DNA from: Carboxydothermus hydrogenoformans Z-2901 | Lineage (GTDB): Bacteria > Bacillota > Z-2901 > Carboxydothermales > Carboxydothermaceae | NCBI RefSeq assembly: GCF_000012865.1 | Contig: NC_007503.1 | Location: 868,001-932,000 of the forward strand | DNA length: 64,000 bases | Direction of reading: 5' to 3' | Shown: positions 38,920-48,255 of the stretch, in pieces | How the letters are laid out: every line of letters begins with the position of its first letter | How positions within the stretch are numbered: position 1 is the stretch's first letter | Translations under genes and position numbers: made by a program | The notes under the pieces: model-generated | Database searches by the model: none | What the model saw: only the letters and a program-made list of their open reading frames with translations | Told to the model about the DNA's origin: nothing

Positions 38920-39006
38920 CCTTTGTCAAAGGCAAACCCGGTGAAAGCCGGGGGCGCAAAGCTACAGGGGCTAAAGCTTAAAGCTAAGCCAGCCAGCTGC
39001 CAAAGG
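38920..39006 (+). promoter_or_regulatory. c-di-GMP-I riboswitch 3, before the second chemosensory operon
   Basis: P1 is clear: CCTTTG (38920-38925) pairs with CAAAGG (39001-39006). The core reads GGCAAACCC, a GAAA-capped stem, GGCGCAAAGC, P3, and AAGCCAGCCAGCTGCC. The ligand-site base is G by alignment. P3 bases AGCTTAAAG (38975-38983) are an exact 9-base complement of CTTTAAGCT (39017-39025), the left part of the following terminator. Free aptamer could therefore antiterminate, and bound aptamer terminate (OFF). Confidence 0.92.
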
Positions 39007-39017
39007 GCTTGGGAGGC

Positions 39018-39056
39018 TTTAAGCTCTCTTCCGTGGGGGTAGAGAGCTTTTATGTT
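39018..39056 (+). terminator. Riboswitch 3 expression-platform hairpin
   Basis: AAGCTCTC (39021-39028) pairs with GAGAGCTT (39042-39049), followed by TTATGTTTT. The ATG inside the U tract (39052) is the first possible start of the next gene, so this hairpin could block transcription or translation. GTGGGGGTAG lies in its loop. Confidence 0.75.
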
Positions 39057-39597
39057 TTCAATAGAGGAACGAATTTCAAAGATAATGGAGGAAGGCAAGG
39101 TGTCTGCAAGCGAAAAAGAAATTCAGGAACTTTTTTCTCAGTTGGTGAGTACAGATGACCTTTTCCAGCGGGAAAATATTTACATAGAACTTTTAAAAAG
39201 AGAAGATGAAGCAATTATCAAAGGCTTTATCGAGTTACTTTACCACGACGATCCAAGCTTACGAAATTTGGCGATTGAAGCTTTAGTGCAGTTAGATGCC
39301 AAAGCTTTTCCCGAGGTAAGTAAACTACTTTCCAGTGAAGATGAAGATATCCGCATTTTTGCGGCAAATATCTTAGGAGAGATGAAAGACCCCCGGGGAA
39401 TTGCAGCTATTCGCGACCACTTGCTTTCTGAGACTAATGTTAATGTTGTTGCCTGGATAGTTGAATATTTAGGCGAATATGGAAATGATGAGGACATTTC
39501 CTTATTAGAGTCGATAAGGGAAAAATTTAAACAGCCGTTTATGGAATTTGCGGTAAATCGGGCAATACAATCCTTAAAAAGCGGTGGGAACGAATGA
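39052..39597 (+). CDS. HEAT-repeat protein of the second chemosensory operon
   Basis: 181 residues from ATG 39052. Helical HEAT-like repeats fill the protein ('FIELLYHDDPSLRNLAIEAL', 'VSKLLSSEDEDIRIFAANIL', 'HLLSETNVNVVAWIVEYLGE'). No catalytic motif is seen. HEAT repeats usually bind proteins, so it may scaffold or tune the receptor array encoded downstream. GTG 39100, 8 bases after a good GGAGG (39087-39091), is an alternative start that would place the terminator hairpin wholly outside the gene. The stop overlaps cheR. Confidence 0.7.
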   Translation: MFSIEERISKIMEEGKVSASEKEIQELFSQLVSTDDLFQRENIYIELLKREDEAIIKGFIELLYHDDPSLRNLAIEALVQLDAKAFPEVSKLLSSEDEDIRIFAANILGEMKDPRGIAAIRDHLLSETNVNVVAWIVEYLGEYGNDEDISLLESIREKFKQPFMEFAVNRAIQSLKSGGNE

Positions 39598-45331: not shown

Positions 45332-45337
45332 TTGGTT

Positions 45338-48034
45338 TTGAGTGACTTAAGGGAAACCTTTGTTTTTGAGGCCCAGGAACTTTTGGAGCAGTTAGAACCT
45401 TTAATTTTAGACTTAGAAATTAACAGCAGCGAAGAAACCATTAATGCTCTTTTTCGTATAGCTCATACTTTAAAGGGTTCAGCGGGGATAGCCGGTATAA
45501 ATTCGGTTAAAGAGTTTACTCATTATCTTGAAACCGTCTTAGAAGCCCTAAGAAGCCATGAGATAGAGATTTCCAGTGATGTGGTAGACCTTTTGCTTGA
45601 AGCCTTTGATCATTTAGGGGAATTGATTACAGCTTTAACTCTTGGCGAAGAGCGTCCTTATAATAAGGACATAGCAGAAAAATTAGCCGGGTTAATAACT
45701 GCAACTAATGAATCAACTTTACCAGCCCAGGAAACAAACAGCTTGGCAACTGTACCTTTACTTAACAAAAGCCATCTTTTAAAATTAACGGCTTCAGACT
45801 GTGCTAAACTTTTAAAGGCAAAGGCTAAAAAGCAAAACTTGTATCAAATTTCACTTGACTTTTCGCCTAATTTCTTTTACTTTGGGCACCGGTTAGAGTA
45901 TGTGCTTGAAGACTTAAAGGCCTTAGGCAATTTAGTGGGTAAATATTATTTTTGGCGGGAAGTACCCAACTGGACTGATTTTTCTCCGGAAAATCTGTAT
46001 TTAAACTTTGAGCTGTATCTGGCCACGAAAAAAAGCCCTAAAGATATTGAAGATGTTTTTCTTTTCATTGCCTCCGAGGAAAATAGTGTAAGAATTGCAG
46101 AAATTACTGCTACTGATTTAGAAGAGTTTATTAAAGGAGAAGTAGATAGCCAAGGTTTAAGAAAAAATTATGAGAAGTTAACTTTAGTTTTACAGGAAAT
46201 AGCGGAGTATAATGACCGCGAACAAATAAAAGAAGCTTTGAACCGGCTTTTAGCCCTATTTAAGGATAGTGCTTTTTCCGACAATCCCTGGCTTGCCGGG
46301 GGATTAGTGGCTCTTATTGAAACAATTGCTGAACTCGTAGAGAGCGACTGGGAAAAAGCGCAGTCTATAAAGCAGCAGGTTTTAGAAATAGCTTTTAGTA
46401 TCCTAAACGAAGTAACGGAGCAAAACTATGTGGAAACCAATCTCTTAACTGTCCTTACCGATTTTTATGAGTTTATTGGCGGTGATGAAGGCGAAACGGA
46501 GATAGAAGTAGATGAGAAAATTCAGCAAAAAGCTGAAAAAGTAGAGATATCCTTATCTTATGTAGAGGAACTTTTAAAACAGCTTTTAGAAGGCCTGCGG
46601 CAGGTTAAAGGTGAAATAAAAGAGCCAGTTTACCAGGCTGCTGCCAAGGCTATTAACAATGTGGAAAAATATTTAGGAATTGACCAGACTGAATGGGAAG
46701 GGAGTTTAACTTTTGAACAGTTAACTGCTCGGTTGCAATTCCTTCTTGAATTAATTTCAGTGCCTCAAGAGGAAGAAAAACCAGCAATTGAAGAAAGCAA
46801 AGAAACCAAAGAAAAAGTTGCCCAAGATACTAAGGAGTTAGAGCAGGAAAACTTAGCAAAAGCCAAGAGAAAAAGCCAAGCATTGAAAATATCCCAGGAA
46901 CTTGCCGATAAACTTCTGGCTTTAGCCGGTGAGTTGATTATTGCCAAAAATAGTTTGCCGTACCTGGTAAAAAAATTGGAAATGCTTGGGCAAATGGAAG
47001 TTGCCCGGGAATTAAAGGATAAAGCTCTTTATATTGACCGTTTGGCCCGGGATTTTCAGGATAGTTTAATGGAACTGCGCCTCTTACCGGTGGAAAATAT
47101 CTTTAAGCGCTTTCCACGGTTTGTGCGGGATACCGCAAAACAGCTAAATAAACAGGTAAACTTAGTTTTAAAAGGGGAAGAAACAAAGTTAGAAAAGGAT
47201 ATCTTAGAAGAACTCTATGAACCGTTACTTCATTTGGTGCGAAATAGCCTGGACCACGGTCTGGAGGAAATTGAAGAGCGGATTACGGGAGGAAAGCCTG
47301 CCACTGGATTATTGGAACTTGCGGCTTACAGCCAGGGTAATAAGGTGATAATCGAGGTTAAAGATGATGGTAGGGGAATTAATCGGGAAAAAGTTTTGAA
47401 GAAAGCAAGAGAAAATGGCTTAATTACTGCCGAGGAAGCTTCAAGGTTAAGACCCGAGCAGGTATATGAGTTAATTTTTAAGCCAGGATTTAGCACCAAA
47501 GATGAAGTAACCGACATTTCGGGACGCGGGGTAGGCATGGATGTGGTGAAGCAAAAAGTTAATGCCCTTGGCGGTCAAGTGGAAGTATTTTCCGAGGAAG
47601 GTAAGGGAACAACCATACGCTTAATTTTGCCAATTTCCATGGCAACAACGGAAGTATTAAAGTTTACTGTAGGTGGTAAGCTATTTGGTATTCCGCTTTA
47701 TACCGTTCGGGAAACGGTAAATGTGCCGGTTAAGGAGATTAAATCTTTTAAGCAAAAACCGGTAGTGGTTATAAGAAACAATGTTATTCCTTTAGTTAAT
47801 TTAGCAAAGACCCTGGGCTTAAAAGAAAAGGAGCAAGAAGAAGTTAAGATTATCATTTTACATTATGGATTTGCCTTAATTGTGGACGATTTACAAGGGA
47901 AAGAAGAAGTAATAATTAAGCCTTTAACGGGGGAATTAAGTCACCTTTCGCTGTATGAAGGAGCATCAATTTTAGGGGATGGGAGCATTCTGTTAATCCT
48001 TGCCCCGACCGGCCTTATGGGTGGTGAAATGTAG
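45338..48034 (+). CDS. cheA: Chemotaxis histidine kinase CheA (expanded)
   Basis: About 898 residues, longer than the usual 650-700. An Hpt domain has the phospho-His in 'ALFRIAHTLKGSAGIAG' (about residue 43). A second conserved module (~145-260, 'LYLNFELYLATKKSPKDIED') is followed by a long helical expansion (~260-500). Then dimerisation ('LIIAKNSLPYLVKKLEMLG'), HATPase ('HLVRNSLDHGLEEIEERI', 'VKDDGRGINREKVLKKAREN', 'DISGRGVGMDVVKQKV') and a C-terminal CheW-like domain. TTG 45338 is used, with GGGGAG about 10 bases upstream; TTG 45332 is possible. It is the only CheA in the window. Confidence 0.95.
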   Translation: MSDLRETFVFEAQELLEQLEPLILDLEINSSEETINALFRIAHTLKGSAGIAGINSVKEFTHYLETVLEALRSHEIEISSDVVDLLLEAFDHLGELITALTLGEERPYNKDIAEKLAGLITATNESTLPAQETNSLATVPLLNKSHLLKLTASDCAKLLKAKAKKQNLYQISLDFSPNFFYFGHRLEYVLEDLKALGNLVGKYYFWREVPNWTDFSPENLYLNFELYLATKKSPKDIEDVFLFIASEENSVRIAEITATDLEEFIKGEVDSQGLRKNYEKLTLVLQEIAEYNDREQIKEALNRLLALFKDSAFSDNPWLAGGLVALIETIAELVESDWEKAQSIKQQVLEIAFSILNEVTEQNYVETNLLTVLTDFYEFIGGDEGETEIEVDEKIQQKAEKVEISLSYVEELLKQLLEGLRQVKGEIKEPVYQAAAKAINNVEKYLGIDQTEWEGSLTFEQLTARLQFLLELISVPQEEEKPAIEESKETKEKVAQDTKELEQENLAKAKRKSQALKISQELADKLLALAGELIIAKNSLPYLVKKLEMLGQMEVARELKDKALYIDRLARDFQDSLMELRLLPVENIFKRFPRFVRDTAKQLNKQVNLVLKGEETKLEKDILEELYEPLLHLVRNSLDHGLEEIEERITGGKPATGLLELAAYSQGNKVIIEVKDDGRGINREKVLKKARENGLITAEEASRLRPEQVYELIFKPGFSTKDEVTDISGRGVGMDVVKQKVNALGGQVEVFSEEGKGTTIRLILPISMATTEVLKFTVGGKLFGIPLYTVRETVNVPVKEIKSFKQKPVVVIRNNVIPLVNLAKTLGLKEKEQEEVKIIILHYGFALIVDDLQGKEEVIIKPLTGELSHLSLYEGASILGDGSILLILAPTGLMGGEM

Positions 48035-48255
48035 TGGCAGAAAAGGTTATTGATTTGCCTCTTACCATTGAAAATGTAGCCCGGGTAAAAGAAGAATTAG
48101 GGGAGTTAAATTTTAAAAAAATAGTTTTTACTACCGACCAGGTGGACCTTGCTGGTTGGCAGCTTTTAAAGTGTTTGCAATTAAATTATCCCGATATCAC
48201 AATTGAAATTGCCAAAAGCCCGGAAATCTGGGAGGAGTTTTTAGAATTAAACTAA
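48034..48255 (+). CDS. Small STAS-like protein
   Basis: 73 residues, GTG start overlapping the cheA stop by one base. 'FKKIVFTTDQVDLAGWQLLK' and 'NYPDITIEIAKSPEIWEEFL' resemble the core of a STAS domain (anti-anti-sigma-factor fold) but the conserved phospho-Ser position is Ala (DLAG). It is the last gene of the second chemosensory operon. Such short STAS proteins accompany some CheA/CheW clusters; the function is unproven. Confidence 0.6.
   Translation: MAEKVIDLPLTIENVARVKEELGELNFKKIVFTTDQVDLAGWQLLKCLQLNYPDITIEIAKSPEIWEEFLELN

Follow-up and report, generated by a model that had tools for sequence, protein, structure and literature searches.

We identified a chemosensory gene cluster in the genome of Carboxydothermus hydrogenoformans Z-2901 (2,401,520 bp, one contig) which, judged by its gene content, is a complete system of the rare class F9 and thus a combination known in kind. 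The cluster lies in a window of 64,000 nucleotides, the whole stretch of DNA that was analysed, and positions below count from its first letter. Two protein architectures are unique to class F9: DosM, a receptor with a double signalling domain, and CheW3, a concatenated triple CheW (PMC9321776). The window holds both of them together with CheA, CheB, CheR and CheY, and thereby the full F9 set. To our overall reading, a two-layered array with input from partner proteins, a CheZ-like phosphatase and a riboswitch that turns the operon off, we assign a probability of roughly 0.7. The genes of the cluster are as follows.

37506–38480, forward strand: MCP-like protein, predicted CheZ-like CheY phosphatase (partial match to PF00015, 1.7e-12)
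38494–38856, forward strand: CheY-type receiver paired with the MCP-like protein (PF00072, E-value 3e-27)
39052–39597, forward strand: HEAT-repeat protein (PF13646, E-value 4e-16)
39594–40409, forward strand: CheR methyltransferase (PF01739, E-value 4e-59)
40455–42398, forward strand: DosM-type receptor (PF00015 in two stretches, no further domain)
42423–43910, forward strand: CheW3, three concatenated CheW domains (PF01584 in three stretches, 4e-100)
43897–44961, forward strand: CheB methylesterase with receiver (domain match)
44975–45331, forward strand: CheY, second receiver (domain match)
45332–48034, forward strand: CheA, 900 amino acids (Hpt, dimerisation, HATPase and CheW domains)
48034–48255, forward strand: small STAS-like protein, 73 amino acids (GTG start overlapping the CheA stop)

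The genes from 39052 to 48255 share one strand with spacings from an overlap up to 45 bp, and an automatic terminator scan found no strong terminator inside them. They form an operon-like unit, as an earlier sequence-only reading of this DNA had described, and every gene on its list, as well as the riboswitch, was found where that reading had placed it. Its upstream boundary was drawn too narrowly, because the pair at 37506–38480 and 38494–38856 is also part of the system (see below). None of the proteins encoded from 39052 to 48255 contains a transmembrane-like segment (highest 19-residue mean hydropathy 1.55). The receptor indeed has the soluble, sensorless, tandem-tip form that had been ascribed to it, with two PF00015 stretches, no other domain and no membrane segment, and the enlargement of CheA was likewise borne out by its 900 residues. 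A long region separates the Hpt domain of CheA from its dimerisation domain; the structure model of this region (predicted local distance difference test, pLDDT, of 63) was too weak for a fold search. Many of the F9 CheAs examined have a similar length, up to about 970 amino acids.

The class assignment is based on several features. Both signalling tips of DosM, at residues of about 184–200 and 484–500, are conserved, CheW3 shows its three PF01584 stretches, and CheA, CheB, CheR and CheY are all encoded in the cluster. F9 systems usually coexist with another F class, and the genome contains a second, ordinary chemotaxis set with single CheW, CheA and CheB at about C1:855919-859518. In a tree of the kinase-to-CheW regions of CheA, with the F9 label given by gene neighbourhood, 41 CheAs from F9 loci were separated from 16 others with a branch support of 99/96. 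The window CheA was placed within a set of 26 Bacillota F9 CheAs, and the genome's own second CheA fell among the 16 non-F9 proteins. The cluster could also be regarded as a new chemosensory class, given that gene order differs in this genus (HEAT-CheR first, the MCP-like/CheY pair upstream) and that the identity of DosM to its counterparts in other phyla is just about 33–49%. We consider this highly improbable in view of the two signature proteins, the position of CheA among the F9-locus CheAs and the intermediate gene orders found in other Bacillota. The sequence-only reading had known of no described system with this combination. We rejected this proposal, since DosM together with CheW3 has been published as the signature that defines F9 (PMC9321776, PMC7534058).

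The F9 array of Vibrio cholerae lies wholly in the cytoplasm and is two-layered; it has been imaged as a double layer, with DosM bridging two CheA/CheW3 baseplates (PMC7534058). Cells show this array when starved or at low oxygen but not while growing exponentially (PMC7534058, PMC9321776), and under standard conditions no phenotype was detected after deletion of the F9 CheA (PMC7534058). Like the V. cholerae system (cluster I; DosM VC1403, CheW3 VC1402, CheA VC1397), the window encodes a sensorless double-domain receptor and a triple CheW, clustered with CheA, CheB, CheR, two CheYs and an MCP-like gene, and its proteins likewise appear cytoplasmic. It differs in the gene order of the genus and in the c-di-GMP (cyclic di-GMP) riboswitch within the cluster. 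From this likeness we infer the array geometry: the two tips of the receptor most probably reach across two baseplates and do not, as had been suggested from the sequence, change the stoichiometry within one. A lack of sensor domains is common to 98% of DosMs (PMC9321776). Because DosM has no sensor, input to what is probably a cytoplasmic array must come through partners, as the sequence-only reading had also proposed. A 293-residue MCP-signalling protein is encoded at 55472–56353 of the window and is a possible sensory partner.

The gene neighbourhood, by which the novelty of the system was to be judged, turned out to recur in the phylum and beyond it. Of 399 genomes of the phylum searched with a triple-CheW profile (E-value at most 1e-90), 35 encode CheW3. 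A tandem-receptor scan of named genome contigs yielded 14 loci outside the phylum with a multi-CheW neighbour; in two of these the CheW gene is split or truncated, and in another two it has four domains. These loci belong to Acidobacteria, Burkholderiales, Alphaproteobacteria, a deltaproteobacterial bin (labelled Myxococcota in the CheA tree), Desulfobacterales, Campylobacterota, Deferribacterota and Alteromonas. The common order across unrelated phyla is DosM-CheW3-CheB-HEAT-CheR-CheY-CheA-STAS-like-(ParA)-CheY plus an MCP-like protein. Some loci show variations: genes for Hsp70-like, TPR and ParA proteins lie within the F9 cluster at L042:10100-12963 (genome G017), several further F9 loci include ParA as well, and in L172 (G309), near a contig end, one CheW3 is flanked by two tandem-tip receptor genes.

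The HEAT and STAS-like proteins are recurrent F9 parts. Among 40 F9 loci holding CheA, CheB and CheR, a HEAT gene is present in 29 and a STAS-like gene in at least 20; both counts are lower bounds, because some regions were truncated and genes that are small or diverged escape detection. In many F9 loci a STAS-like gene of matching size lies at the corresponding place. Its name stands by this position and by weak profile matches of homologues (E-values from 0.0017, for STAS_2 in the homologue from genome G030, to 0.1), whereas the window copy, which had been called STAS-like from its sequence, has no Pfam match, and NCBIfam returned nothing useful for it. Its structure model (pLDDT 55) was too weak for a fold search. 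Both proteins are absent from the F9 literature examined (including PMC7534058 and PMC9321776), and a literature search that left most subscription journals outside gave nothing on HEAT proteins with F9. Once the listed genes are placed, the V. cholerae locus numbers 1394, 1397, 1402 and 1403 have room for a single further gene on either side of cheA, which is arithmetic and no test. In Halobacterium the HEAT_PBS protein OE2401F interacts with CheD as well as with OE2402F, a CheF protein, and motor switching depends on it (PMC2666748). As in our cluster, a HEAT-type protein is encoded at a chemotaxis region; OE2401F, however, is archaeal and tied to the archaellum, and the likeness is one of protein type and location. 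With this precedent, a role of the HEAT protein as a chemotaxis adaptor is plausible.

In many other F9 loci, homologues of the upstream MCP-like/CheY pair lie downstream of CheA and the STAS-like gene. On the strength of this conserved adjacency, the genes at 37506–38480 and 38494–38856 are assigned to the F9 system. The MCP-like protein carries the motif FQDxxxQ at residues 254–260 and has the C-terminal peptide NNVEFF. Residues Q253, Q255, D256, Q260, Y292, H301, E320 and F322 are unvaried in 17 of 17 homologues. In CheZ, FQDxxxQ marks the active site, with Asp143 and Gln147 in the Escherichia coli protein, and the CheZs of Alteromonas, Shewanella, Colwellia and Methylobacterium genomes carry the same motif. 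An hhalign comparison with CheZ aligned 44 columns on the motif (E-value 3e-5, 73%; 87% for the C-terminal part alone), compared to 0.4% for DosM as a control. A search of the PDB with the MCP-like protein returned almost exclusively MCPs. The invariant motif and the profile match centred on it indicate that the protein probably dephosphorylates the neighbouring CheY as CheZ would, and it is perhaps still able to join the array. With CheZ it shares FQDxxxQ on a helix and a short conserved C-terminal peptide; it differs in its MCP-like N-terminal half, in a whole-protein Pfam match below threshold and in the sequence of the C-terminal peptide. Alternatively, the protein might serve the array as a genuine second receptor, in keeping with its PF00015 signalling-domain match and with V. 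cholerae VC1394, which lies in a comparable place and is counted as a 24H receptor (PMC7534058). The CheZ-like match exactly on the invariant motif, the conserved C-terminal peptide and the CheY gene alongside in homologues make this rather unlikely, and the roles of receptor and phosphatase are compatible, not mutually exclusive.

A c-di-GMP-I riboswitch lies between this pair and the HEAT gene. Its elements are the following.

38921–39004, forward strand: c-di-GMP-I riboswitch aptamer (RF01051, 80.8 bits against a gathering score of 35)
38975–38984, forward strand: predicted 5' arm of an antiterminator, in an aptamer stem (10-bp complement to 39016–39025)
39016–39025, forward strand: predicted 3' arm of the antiterminator, overlapping the terminator stem (folding)
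39021–39049, forward strand: terminator-like hairpin, then CTTTTATGTTTTC, a T-rich tract (folding)

The aptamer scores above the Rfam cut-off like other c-di-GMP-I (GEMM-I) riboswitches; it differs from the described cases in its target, an F9 array operon, and our literature search, with the scope given above, yielded no paper on riboswitch control of F9 arrays. The HEAT protein probably starts at GTG 39100, preceded by GGAGG at 39087, in agreement with the start in the sister species (G001); the hairpin at 39021–39049 would then lie in the leader. The automatic terminator scan did not list this hairpin, probably because an ATG interrupts the T run. Pairing of 38975–38984 with 39016–39025 would disrupt both an aptamer stem and the hairpin, and the two predicted folds are therefore mutually exclusive, with −59.3 kcal/mol for aptamer plus terminator and −57.9 kcal/mol for the antiterminator, 1.4 kcal/mol apart. 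We predict from these folds that the riboswitch acts as an OFF switch in the presence of its ligand. Conversely, it could turn the operon on with c-di-GMP, so that the array would serve a sessile or surface state. The near-equal energies do not fix the direction, and the growth conditions of the V. cholerae array cited above would fit such a state. We regard this as unlikely, because the lowest-energy fold unites aptamer and terminator while the antiterminator uses up an aptamer stem, and because c-di-GMP-I riboswitches of the same genome also precede flagellar and chemotaxis genes. Repression by c-di-GMP is the usual logic for such genes. The MCP-like/CheY pair at 37506–38856 lies upstream of the switch and should escape its control.

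The genome contains seven c-di-GMP-I riboswitches. One is located at 7560–7646 of the window ahead of flagellar rod genes, one at 32392–32476 ahead of FapA-like/DUF2225 genes and a dCache receptor, and one at G000:C1:851296 ahead of genes that lead into the main che cluster.

F9 operons of other Bacillota are also c-di-GMP-I riboswitch targets. Using a model of the aptamer, with a subsequent check against Rfam, we found a same-strand aptamer 122–405 bp before DosM in L171, L173, L174, L175 and L195, at 613 bp in L191 and at about 1.7 kb in L190 and L192, with an HD-GYP gene (L190) or masked sequence (L192) in between. These eight loci compare with 0.06 expected within 2 kb from the genomes' own riboswitch counts (164 in 35 genomes). 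Four of the eight belong to one family, which leaves about four or five independent cases, to which the window adds one. The enrichment marks these operons as targets but does not make F9 special, since in the genome of the window such riboswitches stand before flagellar and other chemotaxis genes as well. Terminator-like hairpins follow the aptamer in several of the eight loci. L171 and L174 have two aptamers in a row, and genome G390 possesses two different F9 clusters (L175 and L191), each with an upstream riboswitch. None of the 14 F9 loci outside the phylum has a c-di-GMP-I aptamer at the Rfam cut-off.

A further link to c-di-GMP is a gene remnant that lies past the dCache receptor and ahead of the F9 cluster.

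37233–37482, forward strand: remnant of an HD-GYP gene (c-di-GMP phosphodiesterase type; tblastn, 66% identity, E-value 5e-23)

It aligns to residues 110–180 of the G001 protein and contains in-frame stops; the G001 copy is intact (L039:6600-7145). An HD-GYP gene adjoins the F9 cluster in L039, L041, L176, L183, L189 and L190. The species of the window has lost the enzyme gene and has the riboswitch, a single coincidence that proves nothing.

Several observations weigh against our overall reading. The sister species G001 has the cluster with no riboswitch at this site, the gap between CheY and HEAT being 15 bp; c-di-GMP control is thus not needed for the system. With this and the 14 riboswitch-free loci outside the phylum, we discarded the idea that riboswitch gating is general to F9. 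The c-di-GMP riboswitch noted by the sequence-only reading is present and recurs in other Bacillota, but it is not a fixed feature of the class. The direction of the switch is deduced from folding. PF04344 (CheZ) does not match the window copy of the MCP-like protein and gives an E-value of about 0.015 in two homologues, below the Pfam cut-off. The CheA tree contains no experimentally characterised F9 CheA, and in this organism the system is known from sequence.

Based on these results we propose the following model for this flagellated species of the Bacillota with its full F9 system. DosM most likely bridges two opposed CheA/CheW3 baseplates to give a two-layered cytoplasmic array that makes no membrane contact. 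Signals would enter via other soluble partners, perhaps the HEAT protein, the STAS-like protein or another cytoplasmic receptor. CheA would phosphorylate the two CheYs and CheB, with methylation adjusted by CheR and CheB, and the upstream MCP-like protein would probably act not as a receptor but dephosphorylate the neighbouring CheY in the manner of CheZ. Transcription arriving from the MCP-like/CheY pair would meet the riboswitch. With ligand bound, the aptamer would be kept, the terminator hairpin would form and the proteins from HEAT to STAS-like would not be made. The array would thus be built at low c-di-GMP.

Measured against the F9 literature examined, three things are new: the recurring riboswitch, the recurring HEAT and STAS-like genes, and the likeness of the supposed second receptor to CheZ. 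We tentatively suggest, as a possibility rather short of an even chance, that the Bacillota F9 systems are a c-di-GMP-controlled branch in which several families acquired riboswitches (elsewhere an HD-GYP neighbour), that HEAT and STAS-like proteins are core parts feeding or placing the sensorless array, and that the "24H receptor" is a CheZ-type phosphatase on an MCP-like scaffold. The recurrent c-di-GMP riboswitches provide a regulatory handle on F9 arrays in Bacillota, and the conserved genes for the HEAT and STAS-like proteins offer concrete candidates for the input to an array that lacks sensors. If our reading of the CheZ-like motif in the MCP-like protein is right, the wiring diagram of class F9 would change.

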